NCBI GenBank assembly: GCA_016222905.1
Contig: JACRPZ010000046.1
Coordinates: forward strand, 1-55,387
DNA length: 55,387 bases
Reading direction: 5' to 3'
Source of the DNA: Nitrospirota bacterium
GTDB lineage: Bacteria; Nitrospirota; Thermodesulfovibrionia; UBA6902
This document shows positions 1,318-38,099 of the stretch, piece after piece (position 1 is the stretch's first letter; each line of letters opens with the position of its first letter). The position numbers and the translations under genes are program-made. The notes under the pieces are model-generated. The model saw only the letters and a list, made by a program, of their open reading frames with translations, did no database searches and was not told the DNA's origin.

Positions 1318-1850
1318 ACAAGACCTATGCGGCAAAAAAGCTCAGCAAGGCGCTGATAAATACTGTTGATATTTCAGCAGTGCCCCGTGTGATTGCAGAA
1401 CTTGATGCATTTTCCGGGCTGATTGACGCGGACAAAAGATTTAAGCTCCTCTTCGTAAGCCAGATATTTTCCGAAGACGAAAAGAAGAAGGCGCTTGACC
1501 AGATACTTTCACATATGAAGGCGTCGCCTCAGGGCGCTAAATTCCTGACTTTGATAATTACGCAGGGCGCTGTTACAGCGATTAAAGAGATAATCAACGC
1601 TTCCTTAAATATATATGAGGGAAGAATCGGAAAGGTGACGGCAGAGGTGTCCTCGCCGGTGGCGCTTGATGAAAACTACAGCAACAGGCTTAAAGCAGTG
1701 TTAAAGACGATGACAAACAAAGAGGTTGAGATCGAGAGCAGTATTGATCCGTCGCTTATCGGCGGTTTTATTGTAAAAGTCGGCAGCACTATATATGACA
1801 GCAGCCTTAAAGGACAGCTTCAACTTTTGAAAGCTGAGCTTACAAGATAA
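1314..1850 (+). CDS. atpH: ATP synthase F1 subunit delta
   Basis: The 178-residue length and the C-terminal segment with 'IGGFIVKVGSTIYDSSLKGQ' are characteristic of the delta/OSCP family. Delta joins the b stalk to the top of the alpha3beta3 head. The start is TTG at 1314, overlapping the stop of the b gene (TTGA), so it is probably translated by re-initiation. The family's N-terminal helical domain (about residues 1-105) and C-terminal domain are both present. A 33-base gap separates it from atpA. Confidence 0.92.
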   Translation: MNKTYAAKKLSKALINTVDISAVPRVIAELDAFSGLIDADKRFKLLFVSQIFSEDEKKKALDQILSHMKASPQGAKFLTLIITQGAVTAIKEIINASLNIYEGRIGKVTAEVSSPVALDENYSNRLKAVLKTMTNKEVEIESSIDPSLIGGFIVKVGSTIYDSSLKGQLQLLKAELTR

Positions 1851-1883
1851 ATTACGATTGACAATTATTCGGGGGGTGACTTA

Positions 1884-3401
1884 ATGGAGATTTCAGAGCT
1901 TAAAGCTGAGGAAATAAGTGAATTAATAAAGAGGCAGATCACTGATTTTGAGAAACGTGTTGACGTTAGCGAGGTCGGCACAGTTGTTAAGGTCGGCGAC
2001 GGTATTGCGAAGATATATGGGCTCGATAAGTGCATGGCTTCCGAGCTTCTCGAATTTCCCAATAATGTATTCGGGATGGCGCTGAACCTTGAGACGGATT
2101 CAGTCGGCGCCGTTTTATTCGGCGAAGATACTCTTATCAAGGAAGGCGATCTCGTAAAACGTACAGGGAAGATCATGTCTGTCCCTGTTGGAGAAGCCCT
2201 GCTAGGAAGAGTAGTCAATGCTATCGGCCAGCCTATTGATGGAAAAGGGCCGATCAACTCGACAGAAAGCAGGATAGTTGATGTGGTGGCCCCCGGTATC
2301 ATTGACAGGCAGCCTGTTCGTCAGCCTCTGCAGACTGGAATAAAAGCGGTAGACGCAATGATCCCCGTTGGAAGAGGGCAGAGAGAGCTTATCATCGGTG
2401 ACCGTCAGGTCGGTAAAACCGCGATAGGCATTGACGCCATTATCAACCAGAAGGGCGGAGACGTTTTATGTATATATGTTGCTATCGGTCAGAAGCGTTC
2501 CAACGTTGTCCGTGTTGCCAAAAAACTCGAAGAAGCAGGCGCGCTGGAGCACACAATTATTGTTTCAGCTACGGCGAGTGAGCCCGCTCCGCTTCAGTAC
2601 ATTGCTCCCTATACAGGATGTACGATGGGAGAATACTTCAGGGACAAGGGCAAACACGCATTGATCGTATATGATGACCTTAGTAAACAGGCGACTGCAT
2701 ACAGGCAGCTTTCGCTGCTGCTCAGGCGTCCTCCGGGACGTGAGGCCTTCCCCGGAGACGTTTTTTATCTCCATTCAAGACTGCTTGAAAGGGCGGCAAA
2801 ACTTTCTGATAAACTCGGAGGCGGTTCGCTTACGGCGCTCCCGATCATTGAGACACAGGCGGGCGACGTGTCCGGTTATATTCCGACAAACGTTATCTCA
2901 ATCACGGACGGCCAGATTTACCTTGAGCCGGAGCTATTCTACGCCGGCGTTAGACCCGCGGTTAACGTCGGTCTTTCGGTCAGCCGTGTCGGCGGCGCGG
3001 CACAGACAAAGGCGATGAAGCAGGTGGCGGGAACTCTCAGGCTCGACCTTGCTCAGTTCAGGGAAATGGCTGCGTTCGCCCAGTTTGGCTCCGATCTCGA
3101 TAAAGCGACCCTCTCTCAGATAGAGCGGGGCAAGAGAATGGTTGAACTCCTGAAGCAGGGACAGTATGTTCCTATGACCATGCAGGACCAGGTCATTGTC
3201 CTGTTTGCCGGAACACAGGGCTATCTTGATGATATCCCGGTTGAAGCCGTCAAGAAATTTGAAGAGGAGTTCGTGAAGTTCATGCGCGTATCAAAGGATG
3301 ATATCCGCAAGGAACTCGGTGAGAAGAAGGCGATTGACGACAGCCTGAAAGCAAAACTGGTTCAGGCCATAGAAGAATTCAAGAAAGGATTTCACGCATA
3401 A
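1884..3401 (+). CDS. atpA: ATP synthase F1 subunit alpha
   Basis: A 505-residue non-catalytic nucleotide-binding subunit of the F1 head. The P-loop GDRQVGKT lies at residues 172-179, and the alpha signature [14 protein letters not shown] appears near residues 363-376. The N-terminal beta-barrel and C-terminal helical domain are full length compared with family members of about 500-510 residues. The ATG is preceded by a GGGGGG-rich ribosome binding site at about 1870-1876. It is in an operon with the stalk genes upstream and atpG downstream after a repeat-filled 69-base gap. Confidence 0.97.
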
Positions 3402-23947: not shown

Positions 23948-24133
23948 TTATGTGACGCTTGCCGAGGTCGCCCCATGTACATCTTTGATTAATAAATATT
24001 TAGCCGCAACCAGCAGCGTAACGCCAAACAGCAATGGATAAAACGCGCTTAAGGCGTCCGGATACGATAAGGAAACCAACGAATATATAATAAAAACTCT
24101 CCAGGAAAACAATAACCCCTCCTTGCCATCCAA
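23948..24133 (-). pseudogene. Possible C-terminal fragment of a membrane protein
   Basis: Sixty-one codons with two hydrophobic stretches (LFSWRVFIIYSLVSLSY and FYPLLFGVTLLVAAKYLLI). The composition and its place in a glycan gene cluster suggest the tail of a polytopic protein, but no motif confirms this. No ribosome binding site precedes the first ATG. A chance open frame is the alternative. Confidence 0.25.
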
Positions 24134-29008: not shown

Positions 29009-30115
29009 ATGACATTATTGTGGGCGGTAGTTCTTTTTGGCATTCTGATATTCTTTCATGAGCTTGGCCATTTCCTGCTGGCAAAGATTTTAGGCGTGAA
29101 GGTCCTGAAGTTCTCTCTCGGCATGGGGCCTAAAGTTATAGGCAAAAAGATAGGAGAGACCGAATACGTAATCTCTGCGTTTCCTCTCGGAGGCTATGTC
29201 AAGCCTCTTGGCGAGGAGCCCGGGGAGGAGCTTACTGAGGAGGAGAAGCCGAGGGCATTTAATTTTCAGGCGCCGTGGAAGAGAGCGGCTATTATCCTTG
29301 CAGGCCCTGTCTTTAATCTCGTCCTGGCATATCTTATCTTTTTATTCTTCCTCGGCATTAATCAGCCCATAATAATTCCGGATTTAGACAGCATAACAAC
29401 CTCGATTGAGAGCGTTCAGGATAATTCCCCCGCGATGAAGGCAGGGCTTCAAAAGGATGACGCAGTTGTTGCGATTAATGAAAAGCCTGTAAGCGACTGG
29501 AATGAGATGGCGGAGGTCTTTGCAAAAAATCCGGGGAATGAGCTGTCAGTCAGGGTAAAGAGGGGCAGTGAAATGATCAATGTCAAAATTATCCCTGAAT
29601 CAGTAACAGCCAAGGATGAAGACGGCAAAGATACCGTTACCGGCAGGATAGGGATTTCAAAGAAGCTGAATGCTCATTTTATTGAGAGCAAAGGGATCTT
29701 TGAAGCCCCTTTTAGAGCTCTGGAGGCTCTTTACGGCTGGTGCGTACTTACAATTAAAGTTGTTGTAATGTTATTTACCGGTGGGGTGTCGGCAAAACAG
29801 GTCGGCGGGCCGATATTAATTGTTGATGCGGCAGCCAAGGCAGCCTCTGTCGGTGCATTTGCGTATTTCAACTTTATAGCGGTGATCAGCGTAAACCTTG
29901 CAATCCTCAATCTCATGCCTGTGCCTGTACTTGACGGAGGACACTTGATGTTCCTCTCAATTGAGGCTTTAAGAAGAAGGCCGCTGAGTGAGAAGGTGCT
30001 GAATTGGGCTAACAAGGTAGGAATGGCGCTGCTCTTAATGCTGATAGCCTTTGTCTTTTACAACGATATAATGAGGATAATTGTTCCGTGGGTCGAGAAG
30101 TCGCTTAATCAATAG
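29009..30115 (+). CDS. rseP: Site-2 zinc metalloprotease RseP
   Basis: A 368-residue intramembrane protease. The zinc site HELGH lies at residues 17-21 in the first membrane segment, a PDZ domain covers about residues 125-200 (SPAMKAGLQKDDAVVAINEKPVSDW), and the second metal motif NLMPVPVLDGGH is near residue 307. In other bacteria RseP cuts anti-sigma factors after a site-1 protease, releasing ECF sigma factors. That makes it a candidate partner of the ECF module at 35253. ATG with a short gap after dxr. Confidence 0.95.
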   Translation: MTLLWAVVLFGILIFFHELGHFLLAKILGVKVLKFSLGMGPKVIGKKIGETEYVISAFPLGGYVKPLGEEPGEELTEEEKPRAFNFQAPWKRAAIILAGPVFNLVLAYLIFLFFLGINQPIIIPDLDSITTSIESVQDNSPAMKAGLQKDDAVVAINEKPVSDWNEMAEVFAKNPGNELSVRVKRGSEMINVKIIPESVTAKDEDGKDTVTGRIGISKKLNAHFIESKGIFEAPFRALEALYGWCVLTIKVVVMLFTGGVSAKQVGGPILIVDAAAKAASVGAFAYFNFIAVISVNLAILNLMPVPVLDGGHLMFLSIEALRRRPLSEKVLNWANKVGMALLLMLIAFVFYNDIMRIIVPWVEKSLNQ

Positions 30116-34208: not shown

Positions 34209-34296
34209 GCTAACGATATTATTAACTGGTTTCTTGTTATCATACCAAAAAGCAAAGCTTTTGATAAGAAATTTGACAAATTTTTGAGGGCATGGA
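34209..34296 (+). repeat. ~85-bp duplicated promoter-bearing element, copy 1
   Basis: The stretch from GCTAACGATATTATTAACTG through TTGACAAATTTTTGAGGGC matches 37989-38077 over its whole length with few differences. Both copies contain TTGTTATCATACCAAAAAGC and a TTGACA -35 box, and end inside the promoter spacer. Different -10 boxes follow in the two places. Both copies point the same way and precede unrelated genes. Confidence 0.85.
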
Positions 34297-34302
34297 TATA
34301 TT
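34273..34302 (+). promoter_or_regulatory. Promoter of the small secreted protein gene (from repeat copy 1)
   Basis: TTGACA at 34273-34278 lies within the duplicated element, and TATATT at 34297-34302 lies just past its right end. The spacer is 18 bases. A start near 34309 would give a leader of about 93 bases. Confidence 0.5.
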
Positions 34303-34401
34303 TCACAGCTTGTAACCTTTCTTCCTTTGTTTCGTCTTATCTATAACATGACGGCTCATATTATCAGCAGTCGTGATCTAAATAATGAAGGGGGTGAAGA
34401 G

Positions 34402-34560
34402 ATGAAGAGAACGAAATCTGCAGTTGTTGCAATAATCATTGCGTTAACGCTCACAATCGGCGCTTCCGCATTTGCAATGGGCACATGCAAGTGCACTATG
34501 GGCACATGTACCGGCTCGGGCACTATGGTCCCGGGTTCAGGCACCATGACAGGCAAATAG
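34402..34560 (+). CDS. Small exported Cys/Gly/Thr/Met-rich protein
   Basis: A 52-residue protein from ATG 34402, preceded by a strong GGGGGTG ribosome binding site. The signal peptide has a hydrophobic core at about residues 8-22, likely cut after AFA. The mature peptide of about 27 residues has repeats MGTCKCTMGTCTGSGTM and GSGTMTGK with three Cys. I recognise no family. Metal binding is conceivable from the Cys and Met content but unproven. A longer in-frame start at 34327 would pass through an unrelated leader and is rejected. Confidence 0.6.
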   Translation: MKRTKSAVVAIIIALTLTIGASAFAMGTCKCTMGTCTGSGTMVPGSGTMTGK

Positions 34561-34608: not shown

Positions 34609-34650
34609 CTATTTGCATATACTTTAATTGCTACATTACACAGCTTAAGT

Positions 34651-34762
34651 GAAGCTCCCCGCCTACAAGGCGGGGCTTCTTAAAAAACAAGGATAAGGGA
34701 ACATCCTGTTCCCTTATAACCCCTTGGCAAGGATGCCATTCATCCCCGTGCACAGCACGGGG
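34651..34762 (-). mobile_element. IS200/IS605-like end remnant with clustered hairpins
   Basis: Four hairpins lie in 112 bases: CCCCGCC/GGCGGGG (34657-34675), ATAAGGGAACA/TGTTCCCTTAT (34693-34717), TGGCA/TGCCA (34725-34738) and CCCCGTG/CACGGGG (34744-34762). On the minus strand the block ends with a GC-rich hairpin and GGGGAGCTTCAC. That is the look of right ends of IS200/IS605 elements, where the TnpB guide RNA scaffold is encoded. No tnpA or tnpB is present. A family assignment from memory only; another structured RNA is possible. Confidence 0.45.
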
Positions 34763-34776
34763 TATTCTGGCATAAT

Positions 34777-34805
34777 TTCATAAATTCATACTCTCTTCAT
34801 ATAAT
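34777..34805 (+). promoter_or_regulatory. Promoter of the CBM48/ECF-sigma operon
   Basis: TTCATA at 34777-34782, a 17-base spacer, and perfect TATAAT at 34800-34805, 18 bases before the lipoprotein start. A housekeeping-type promoter, so at least the first gene may be made without the ECF factor. Confidence 0.5.
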
Positions 34806-34822: not shown

Positions 34823-35200
34823 ATGAAATTAACGGAGAATACAAGACGGCGCTTCCTGCTCTCTCTCTTCCTGATCCCGGCAGCGGTTGCCGTTCTGTAC
34901 GGATGCAGTTTAAAATACAGCGGGCCCCGGGTTGTAAAGGGCGGCGTAATGTTCCACATTAAGGCAGAGGACGCCAAAAGGGTTGCCGTCGCAGGCAGTT
35001 TTAACCAATGGAATGCCGATAAAGACATCCTTTCCGGCCCTGACAAAAATGGAGAGTGGAGCATTGTCATTCCCCTCGCTGACGGACGATATGAGTATCT
35101 TTTCTTAATGGATGGAACGCGCTTGTTCTTGGACCCTGATGCCCCTGTCGCGGAGGATAGTTTTGGCGGAAGAAATTCGGTTGTTTCGATAAAGCGATAA
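34823..35200 (+). CDS. Lipoprotein with CBM48 (glycogen-binding-like) domain
   Basis: A 125-residue protein. An Arg-rich N-terminus and hydrophobic stretch end in the lipobox-like LYGC (Cys about residue 29). The rest is one early-set beta-sandwich: GGVMFHIKAEDAKRVAVAGSF-type sequence with NQWNADKD, then GEWSIVIPLADGRYEYLFLMDG, the pattern of AMPK/isoamylase N-terminal CBM48 domains that bind alpha-glucans. The same domain ends the putative anti-sigma protein two genes on. ATG 34823 is preferred over TTG 34817. Ligand binding is inferred from fold only. Confidence 0.75.
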   Translation: MKLTENTRRRFLLSLFLIPAAVAVLYGCSLKYSGPRVVKGGVMFHIKAEDAKRVAVAGSFNQWNADKDILSGPDKNGEWSIVIPLADGRYEYLFLMDGTRLFLDPDAPVAEDSFGGRNSVVSIKR

Positions 35201-35252
35201 TGGCATGCTGTAACAATTATGATTCCATTTTCGTCTTATTAACAGGAACAAT

Positions 35253-35813
35253 GTGGAAATACAGAGAGATGAATACGCGCTTATCAAGGAATGCGTGGAC
35301 GGGAATGCGGAGGCATACGCCGTCCTGGTAGACAGGTATAAGGATATGATTTACAACATAGCTTACAGAATGTTAGGCGATGCCGACACAGCTCATGATA
35401 TGGCCCAGGAGAGCTTTATATCGGCATATGCCGGCTTGAAGAAATTTAAAAATGATTCCAAATTCTCCACATGGCTTTACAGTATTGCGGTAAATAAATG
35501 CCGGGACCATCTAAGAGGCAAAAGGCCTCACGTTCCGATTGATGAGATAGCAGAAGTTGCCTGTTCAGCGGCAAATCCAGAAGAGGGTCTGCAGAGCAGG
35601 CAGATGCTGGACGGTATACAAAACGCCCTTAATGCATTGCCCGATAATTACCGCGAGGCGATTATCTTAAAACATATTGAAGGCCTGGATTACAAAGAGA
35701 TGGGGACCATAATTGGCATTGACGCAGGGACGCTCAAAGTAAGGACGCATAGAGGAAGAGAGATGCTGAAAAAATTATTAAAAGGGACCGGGGTGTTTGA
35801 TGGACAACGATAG
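35253..35813 (+). CDS. ECF RNA polymerase sigma factor (RpoE-like)
   Basis: A 186-residue sigma-70 family member with only regions 2 and 4. Region 2 reads YAVLVDRYKDMIYNIAYRML and DMAQESFISAYAGLKKFKND through FSTWLYSIAVNKCRDHLR. Region 4 reads ALNALPDNYREAIILKHIEG and YKEMGTIIGIDAGTLKVRTH with its helix-turn-helix. GTG start at 35253. It overlaps the next gene by 14 bases, the usual sigma/anti-sigma coupling. A conserved role in envelope sensing is inferred from its partner's membrane topology. Confidence 0.92.
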   Translation: MEIQRDEYALIKECVDGNAEAYAVLVDRYKDMIYNIAYRMLGDADTAHDMAQESFISAYAGLKKFKNDSKFSTWLYSIAVNKCRDHLRGKRPHVPIDEIAEVACSAANPEEGLQSRQMLDGIQNALNALPDNYREAIILKHIEGLDYKEMGTIIGIDAGTLKVRTHRGREMLKKLLKGTGVFDGQR

Positions 35814-36447
35814 AGAGCTTATCCATAAGCTGCTGGATGGCGGACTTCCCTCTGATGAGACAGCAGCTCTCATGAAGAGGGTAAATTCCGATCCGGATTT
35901 GCTGGAAGAGTTCACCTTATTAAAAGAAGCCGTTACTGTTATTGAGAAGTCTGAGCGGAAACAGGCGTCCGCATCGTTCACTTCAGATGTTATGAGACGA
36001 TTATCTTCAGGCGCAAAGGCTGAAAGGAAAGGGTGGAGGAATTTCTTTTTCGGAGAGAGGATATTCAGATGGAACATGGCTTATGCCGCTGCAGCGCTCC
36101 TTCTTGCCGTGCTGACAGCAGGAGGCATTTATAATTTCAGAAGCGGCGGGCAGATTCCTTATTCTGCTTTGGATAAATCTGCCGTTACAGTGAAATTTAA
36201 CTTTTATTCCCCTGATGCGAAGAGCGTTTCCGTTGCGGGAGATTTCAATAAATGGAGGACCGATGCCGGGGTCATGAGGAGAGAGGAGGGAGGGATCTGG
36301 ACTATCAAGATACCGTTGAAGCCCGGAGCATATAATTATATGTTCGTTATGAATGGAGATGCCTGGATAACCGACCCTGAAGCCGCAGCATATCACGACG
36401 ACGGATTCGGGTACAAAAATTCTGTTGTAAGGGTTGATAAATTATGA
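35800..36447 (+). CDS. Putative anti-sigma factor with periplasmic CBM48 domain
   Basis: 215 residues. The N-terminal part (about 1-55, HKLLDGGLPSDETAALMKRV) resembles the helical cytoplasmic domain of anti-sigma factors, but no zinc HxxxCxxC is seen. One membrane segment follows (about residues 90-108, AYAAAALLLAVLTAGGIY). The outside part (about residues 125-215) is a CBM48 sandwich: KSVSVAGDFNKWRTDAG and GGIWTIKIPLKPGAYNYMFV. It thus could gate the sigma factor in response to a glycan outside the membrane. Start ATG 35800 overlaps the sigma gene; its stop overlaps the next start by 4 bases. Confidence 0.72.
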   Translation: MDNDRELIHKLLDGGLPSDETAALMKRVNSDPDLLEEFTLLKEAVTVIEKSERKQASASFTSDVMRRLSSGAKAERKGWRNFFFGERIFRWNMAYAAAALLLAVLTAGGIYNFRSGGQIPYSALDKSAVTVKFNFYSPDAKSVSVAGDFNKWRTDAGVMRREEGGIWTIKIPLKPGAYNYMFVMNGDAWITDPEAAAYHDDGFGYKNSVVRVDKL

Positions 36448-37358
36448 AATCAATTAAGACAAGAATCTTCATTTTCTGCATAATTCTGCTTGCGGGTTGC
36501 GGCGTTGCCTCGGCAGACACCGGAAAGGATATGGAAGAGTTGAGGCTTTCGCCTGAGATGTCGGCGGTCCCGCTGGATGAGAGGGAAAGCCTCCTGAAGA
36601 TCTTAAATGATGCGGTGAAGGCCGGCGTACCGTCAACTGATATTGCGCTCATTGTTAAGAGAGGGCTGGCAAGAGGATGGGAGAGCAAATCAATCAAAGA
36701 GTCAGTGCTCCTGCTTACCAAAACAGAGCAACAGGGTCTGCCATTGACCTCTCTGCTGGACAGATTTCATCAGGGGCAGGCAAAGGGAGTGCCTTTTGAG
36801 AGAGTCTCTGCTTCAGCAAACAAATTGACTGAAAAACTTTCGGCGGCTGACGGGATGGTCGGCAGTCTTATGAGAGGCGGCATGAAGGAAGGCAAGGGCG
36901 ATGAAAAAGGGAAAACCATCCAGACTGTTGCGCGGGCCATGGAAAGATCAGTCCCTGATGCTGCTGTTATGCAGATAGGGGCTAAACTCATGAAGAGTAA
37001 CAGTCCGTTATCGAAGTTAGACGCCGCCGTTTCAACCATGACCAATGCCATAGAGATGGGCATGCAGCCCGCGCAGGCATCAAAAATGATGAATATGGCG
37101 ATAGACAAGGGTTATTCTGAAACCGATATGATGATGATGGAGAGAGAGATGTTCAGCATGATGAGAGACGGCGCAACGATGAATGATGTAATGAGGAATA
37201 TGGAGACCATGATGAATAGCGGAGGGATGGGCTTCTCAGGCTCAGGCATGGGTGGAGGCGCCATGATACACAACGGCACCGGAATGAGCGGCAGTCCCGG
37301 CATGACTCACGGAGGTTCAGGCATGGGCGGCGGAGGCGGAGGCATGCACGGCAGGTAA
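36444..37358 (+). CDS. Exported protein with Met/Gly-rich tail, fourth gene of the ECF module
   Basis: A 304-residue protein. The N-terminus has a signal with lipobox-like LLAGC (Cys about residue 19). Residues 30-230 are helical and charged with no family I recognise. The last 60 residues are Gly/Met/Ser-rich with repeated GSGMGGG and GTGMSGSPGM units and His (MIHNG, MTHGG, MHGR). Such tails sometimes bind copper or are flexible, but this is speculation. It overlaps the anti-sigma gene by 4 bases, so all four genes form one transcription unit. Confidence 0.6.
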   Translation: MKSIKTRIFIFCIILLAGCGVASADTGKDMEELRLSPEMSAVPLDERESLLKILNDAVKAGVPSTDIALIVKRGLARGWESKSIKESVLLLTKTEQQGLPLTSLLDRFHQGQAKGVPFERVSASANKLTEKLSAADGMVGSLMRGGMKEGKGDEKGKTIQTVARAMERSVPDAAVMQIGAKLMKSNSPLSKLDAAVSTMTNAIEMGMQPAQASKMMNMAIDKGYSETDMMMMEREMFSMMRDGATMNDVMRNMETMMNSGGMGFSGSGMGGGAMIHNGTGMSGSPGMTHGGSGMGGGGGGMHGR

Positions 37359-37988: not shown

Positions 37989-38077
37989 GCCTAACAATAT
38001 TATTAACTATTTTCTTGTTATCATACCAAAAAGCAACATTTTTGATAAGAAATTTGACAAAATTTTGAGGGCGTGAT
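37989..38077 (+). repeat. ~85-bp duplicated promoter-bearing element, copy 2
   Basis: Second copy of the element at 34209-34296, in the same orientation. It again ends within a promoter spacer, with TTGACA at 38054-38059. The sequence to the left is the 5' end of the small membrane-protein gene; to the right is the hypothetical gene at 38100. Confidence 0.85.
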
Positions 38078-38083
38078 TATAAT
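38054..38083 (+). promoter_or_regulatory. Promoter from repeat copy 2
   Basis: TTGACA (38054-38059), an 18-base spacer and perfect TATAAT (38078-38083). Only about 10 bases would lie between the transcription start and ATG 38100, so the message would be nearly leaderless. Confidence 0.5.
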
Positions 38084-38099
38084 TCCTCACTTACTAACC

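Follow-up and report, generated by a model that had tools for sequence, protein, structure and literature searches.

The window analysed here, a 55,387-nucleotide stretch of DNA from a Nitrospirota bacterium, contains a compact operon that probably encodes a transmembrane switch made of an ECF sigma factor and an anti-sigma factor, in which an outer CBM48 domain reports on a glycan or on a glycan-bound partner; we give this reading a probability of about 0.6. Sensor anti-sigma factors are a known kind of regulator, and this one would combine an RsgI-like sensing logic with an RsiW-like switch. An ORF scan of the window located four tightly packed and overlapping ORFs on the + strand, at positions 34823-37358, where an earlier note on this DNA had described genes for a CBM48 lipoprotein, an ECF sigma factor, a putative anti-sigma factor and an exported protein. 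The arrangement is not due to chance, because it recurs in dozens of species.

Sigma factor, anti-sigma factor and distribution of the unit

The second gene of the operon (35253..35813, +), starting with GTG, codes for a sigma factor of 186 aa with complete regions 2 and 4 of sigma70 and no other sigma70 region, as expected for the ECF type. The Pfam matches (Sigma70_r2, E=1.6e-20; r4_2, E=1.5e-13) and the match to TIGR02937 were all over the cut-off, and its best relative in NCBIfam was SigW. Whole-genome searches with PF04542 and TIGR02937 revealed no other clear ECF sigma factor.

The third gene (35800..36447, +) overlaps the sigma gene by 14 bases and codes for a protein of 215 aa consisting of an anti-sigma domain, a transmembrane (TM) helix and a CBM48 domain. 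The RsiW-like anti-sigma domain comprises residues 1-74 (35800..36021, +). A profile of 22 homologues matched, over residues 6-74 and with E=8.1e-10, the Bacillus RsiW of PDB 5wuq, which was crystallised with SigW, and NCBIfam gave a weak anti-sigma match to the N-terminal half of the protein. The AlphaFold2 model consists of four helices (residues 2-13, 18-30, 32-50 and 60-70), a TM helix (89-114) and a CBM48 sandwich; a four-helix layout is found in RsiW as well (PMC5358783). The zinc motif C/H-HxxxCxxC is absent from the window protein and its 21 aligned relatives, which places them outside RsiW proper and the ZAS domains. Canonical zinc anti-sigma domains carry zf-HC2-like motifs, and such motifs are kept in two distant members of the family, L110, which passes the Pfam cut-off, and L142, which stays below it. 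Judged from the profile match and the four-helix model, the N-terminus of the window protein is a true RsiW homologue with a class I sigma-binding domain, predicted to bind the sigma factor, which agrees with the role that the earlier note had assigned to it.

Exactly one TM segment was predicted from hydropathy in all 22 aligned anti-sigma proteins (residues 93-111 in the window protein; 36076..36132, +), with an excess of K/R on its N side in most of them, including the window protein. The single segment and the distribution of charges predict that the CBM48 half lies outside the inner membrane, as had been claimed, and we discarded a cytoplasmic location of this domain on topology.

The full-length anti-sigma-CBM48 protein occurs in 59/396 sampled Nitrospirota genomes. 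Relatives in named genomes, taken from the best 80 of 501 matching stretches, come from Candidatus Nitrospira defluvii, N. moscoviensis, Acidobacteria, Rokubacteria, Gemmatimonadota, Fodinibius roseus and an Elusimicrobia MAG. Neighbours were counted only in loci with room to see them; these loci are not independent, many coming from Nitrospira, and a few distant ones also contributed to the profiles. The sigma gene immediately precedes that of the anti-sigma factor in 75/76 loci, and 58/62 have a second CBM48 no more than 1.2 kb away. The pairing of a sigma factor with a TM-CBM48 protein, for which the earlier note had suggested a neighbourhood search, is thus conserved. Gene order varies, the lipoprotein gene opening the operons of Thermodesulfovibrionia type and standing third in those of Nitrospira, and presence is patchy: the unit was found in 3/37 genomes of the window's own family and in 24/49 good genomes of the genus holding N. 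moscoviensis.

CBM48 domains, the fourth protein and the ligand question

The predicted extracytoplasmic CBM48 of the anti-sigma factor spans residues ~128-213 (36181..36438, +) and belongs to this family by both profile and fold, with a Pfam CBM_48 match at residues 130-193 (E=6.7e-13) and a Foldseek match to the glycogen-binding domain of AMPK-beta (E=3.4e-8, rmsd 1.2 A). The first gene of the operon (34823..35200, +) codes for the second CBM48 protein, an AMPK-beta-like lipoprotein of 125 aa (Pfam AMPK1_CBM, E=2.8e-12) with the lipobox LYGC and Ser at +2; the lipobox Cys is conserved in >90% of 21 homologues.

We aligned these domains with AMPK-beta-1, whose glycogen contact residues we take to be W100, K126, W133 and N150. 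At the positions of W100, W133 and N150, 68/68 anti-sigma factors keep the AMPK residue without exception, whereas K126 is replaced in every copy, by Met in 63/68 and by Ser in 5/68, so that the full contact set is not present. The lipoproteins retain W100 in 30/30, W133 in 28/30 and N150 in 29/30 cases; the window's own lipoprotein has Leu in place of W133 and is left with a single contact tryptophan. The competition for one ligand between sensor and lipoprotein that the earlier note raised is speculative. Conservation of the two tryptophans and the asparagine with a changed K126 is what would be expected of a working aromatic platform of altered specificity, although it does not prove one, and glycan sensing by the outer CBM48 is our leading inference from these alignments.

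The most serious rival is that the CBM48s are protein-docking modules, through which the lipoprotein, the fourth protein, an outer-membrane barrel and the anti-sigma factor touch across the periplasm; the system would then report envelope or outer-membrane assembly stress in the manner of RseA/RseB, without any sugar. The behaviour of the CBM48s of CE1 xylan esterases gives this possibility weight, since they did not bind any glycan assayed and, in a crystal dimer, grip each other (PMC8040265). It also gains from the consistent loss of K126 in the anti-sigma factors, from the status of the operon sigma as the only clear ECF sigma of the genome, which would allow a general envelope-stress role, and from the operon of Fodinibius roseus (L140 10729-11988), where an exported, barrel-like protein carries the second CBM48 as a C-terminal fusion. 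On the other side, surface residues matching the glycogen contacts, two tryptophans and an asparagine, are invariant across a wide phylogenetic range, and a module present in about half of the good genomes of one Nitrospira genus is unlike a core stress system. We regard docking as somewhat unlikely, but as the alternative most worth keeping in mind.

In a tree of CBM48 domains, which has limited resolution, the sensor, lipoprotein and cytoplasmic CBM48s separate from one another, and similar internal groupings appear within each family. The separate lineages of the sensor and lipoprotein domains are consistent with a long co-inheritance of the two. This tree, which rests on few columns and has partial support, gave no backing to the idea that the two CBM48s arose by a recent duplication.

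The fourth gene (36444..37358, +) codes for an exported protein of 304 aa, designated fam1. The earlier note had called it an exported Met/Gly-rich protein; the description as Met/Gly-rich applies only to the disordered last ~40 residues, the protein being mainly a folded helical-repeat domain. AlphaFold2 predicted, with a mean pLDDT of 85, a confident array of 14 helices over residues ~44-258, for which we found neither a PDB match at E<=1e-3 nor an informative match in Pfam or NCBIfam, and the protein itself appears to be undescribed. The composition of the tail varies by lineage, from Met/Gly to the Arg/Asp/Glu/Pro seen in Nitrospira. Sensing of copper or heavy metals, prompted by the Met-rich tails and by Cus/Cop-like genes near the operon in genome G033, was set aside because the Nitrospira tails are Arg/Asp/Glu/Pro-rich and the Cus/Cop-like neighbours are not conserved.

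The helical-repeat protein is the most constant partner of the anti-sigma factor, being present in 62/62 loci. Across the 396 genomes we found it in 62 and the anti-sigma factor in 59, with both in 58, the anti-sigma factor only in 1 and the helical-repeat protein only in 4; at least one of these exceptions lies at a contig end, since the anti-sigma match in G400 begins at base 3 of its contig. That this protein is more constant than the second CBM48 (62/62 versus 58/62) would fit an ordinary switch controlling its own operon, in which the helical-repeat protein senses the real signal and the CBM48 acts just as an inert E-set spacer. We consider this improbable, because a spacer would not be expected to keep the same two tryptophans and asparagine in 68/68 anti-sigma factors, and no self-regulatory ECF motif precedes the operon. 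Finally, a CBM48 facing the cytoplasm and reading cytoplasmic glycogen, which would follow the rule for CBM48s and has company in the cytoplasmic PilZ-CBM48 and free CBM48 proteins of this lineage, is hardly credible given that the RsiW-like half can meet the sigma factor only in the cytoplasm, that there is exactly one TM segment with an N-side K/R excess in most members, and that the partner CBM48 protein is a lipoprotein.

Proposed switch and relation to known systems

Under the glycan-sensing reading, the cytoplasmic RsiW-like domain would, by homology to the solved complex, hold the SigW-like sigma factor at rest, while the outer CBM48 would report the state of an envelope glycan or of a glycan-bound partner. 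It would probably do so together with the CBM48 lipoprotein and the exported helical-repeat protein, joined in relatives by a barrel of the outer membrane. Once the ligand is engaged or lost, the anti-sigma factor could become open to cleavage in two steps, the second of them probably by RseP, and the freed sigma factor would then transcribe genes for the envelope or the extracellular matrix. RseP, which the earlier note had proposed for this step, is indeed encoded in the genome as a RseP/RasP-type site-2 protease that is not linked to the operon (29009..30115, +; TIGR00054, E=1.3e-91), and it is the second protease in SigI/RsgI of Clostridium thermocellum (PMC12203970). No candidate for the site-1 protease came to light; for PrsW, a search of the genome with PF13367 gave no match, while control genomes did.

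The switch with a glycan-reporting outer domain is supported by the RsiW match, the four-helix/TM/CBM48 model and the single, N-in TM segment; by the conserved neighbourhood, the co-occurrence of the anti-sigma factor and the helical-repeat protein and the invariant contact residues; and by the separate CBM48 lineages, the barrel fusion in Fodinibius, an adjacent glycosyltransferase gene (GT2; see below) and the zf-HC2-like motifs of L110 and L142. Against it count the replacement of K126, the non-binding CE1 CBM48s, the lack of an ECF promoter motif, the absence of PrsW and the presence of the GT2 neighbour in only two loci. A bolder version, which we put forward tentatively as possible rather than probable, is an undescribed trans-envelope polysaccharide-sensing system, widespread in Nitrospirota and several other phyla, in which paired CBM48s, one lipoprotein-anchored or barrel-fused and the other on the anti-sigma factor, would gauge a self-made or captured glucan, and the helical-repeat family would carry or tune the signal to a dedicated ECF sigma factor governing matrix or surface genes.

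The system resembles SigW/RsiW of Bacillus subtilis (PDB 5wuq, PMC5358783) in its homologous sigma-binding domain, its single-pass anti-sigma factor and a SigW-like sigma factor encoded directly upstream, but differs in the missing zinc ligands, in an outer half folded as a CBM48, in a genome without PrsW and in the extra conserved operon partners. With SigI/RsgI of C. thermocellum (PMC12203970) it shares a cytoplasmic sigma-holding domain, one TM segment and an outer module of carbohydrate-binding type. In contrast to that system, it has an ECF sigma factor with an RsiW-type domain, a Gram-negative envelope and a CBM48 instead of CBM3, CBM42 or PA14, and there is no room between the TM segment and the module for an autocleaving periplasmic domain. 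Neither Pfam nor NCBIfam gave an RsgI family match for the window anti-sigma factor and, because the sigma type and the anti-sigma domain also differ, we do not consider the system a member of the RsgI family.

The outer CBM48 shares its fold, two contact tryptophans and an asparagine with the glycogen-binding domain of AMPK-beta (PDB 1z0n, 4yef), but has K126 replaced and is found outside the inner membrane, on an anti-sigma factor or a lipoprotein anchor. In E. coli SigE/RseA/RseB, too, the anti-sigma factor faces the envelope and a periplasmic partner is encoded along with it, whereas here the partners are CBM48 and helical-repeat proteins; Pfam and NCBIfam gave no match to FecR, RseA or RseB domains in any of the four proteins. 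In the openly accessible literature, which leaves most subscription journals outside its scope, we did not find a prior description of a CBM48 anti-sigma factor or of the four-gene unit.

Glycan-sensing anti-sigma factors with outer CBMs have been described for the Gram-positive SigI/RsgI, and here a Gram-negative lineage seems to have arrived at this logic on its own, starting from an RsiW-like switch and a glycogen-type module. Nitrite oxidisers such as Nitrospira defluvii and N. moscoviensis carry the unit, and the aggregates and matrix of these bacteria are important in nitrification and in the treatment of waste water. The unit is accompanied by a near-universal partner without a known family. 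Two tryptophans and one sigma factor offer a concrete, testable handle.

Surroundings of the operon

Genes for outer-membrane barrels accompany the operon in relatives, with a BBP2_2 gene downstream in L069 (E=7.7e-11) and a Phenol_MetA_deg gene upstream of the sigma gene in Nitrospira; a search for a BBP2_2-type homologue elsewhere in the window genome, run without a positive control, did not find one. Ahead of the Nitrospira operons lie genes for DUF5666 proteins and for exported proteins of low complexity. Exported proteins with long low-complexity runs of Arg/Asp/Glu, and DUF5666 proteins, were noted beside the operon in L116 (7534-8136), L119 (7491-8138) and L101 (7540-8211). In two species (L034/L068 and L082), a chitin-synthase-like GT2 gene adjoins the operon.

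The shared ECF promoter motif envisaged in the earlier note was not recovered, as no convincing bipartite motif of this type precedes the operon or the neighbouring genes; in its place, the operon is preceded by a TTCAT-type direct-repeat element. This candidate cis element, TTCATANTCTCTTC, lies 24 bp before the lipoprotein start (34785..34798, +). Among 147 loci, exact matches to it were confined to the region before this operon, in the window and two other genomes, each sampled twice, and its chance expectation in the window is 0.11 at one mismatch. Elsewhere in the genome there are two more exact matches, neither of them before such operons. We abandoned the definition of a regulon from this element, as no operon recognisably related to this one follows these other matches. 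The element is conserved in L040, L043, L070 and L072 as part of an 11-bp direct-repeat pattern resembling sites of the OmpR/PhoB family, and in L070 genes for an OmpR-type regulator and a histidine kinase lie directly upstream.

Two 95-bp direct repeats, 88% identical (34210-34304 and 37991-38085), flank a 3.7-kb stretch containing the operon, and a third copy is found on contig C72 at 23984-24075; they could be copies of a promoter-like element or else mark the ends of a cassette that was inserted. Upstream of the operon, the ORF scan identified a gene for a small exported Met/Gly/Thr-rich peptide of 52 aa (34402..34560, +), and small Met/Gly-rich exported repeat peptides occupy this place in four genomes (the window, L072, L074 and L076). 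Between the peptide gene and the operon are G+C-rich inverted repeats (34640-34770) that resemble IS200/IS605-type ends or REP elements.

CBM48 domains also occur in other contexts. In many genomes of the window's family, a PilZ-like N-terminal domain, assigned by eye, is fused to a CBM48 (L010-L013, L016, L018-L020, L023 and L025), which suggests a link between c-di-GMP and glycogen. L008 encodes at 1498-2583 (-) a ParA-type ATPase, likewise assigned by eye, with a C-terminal CBM48.
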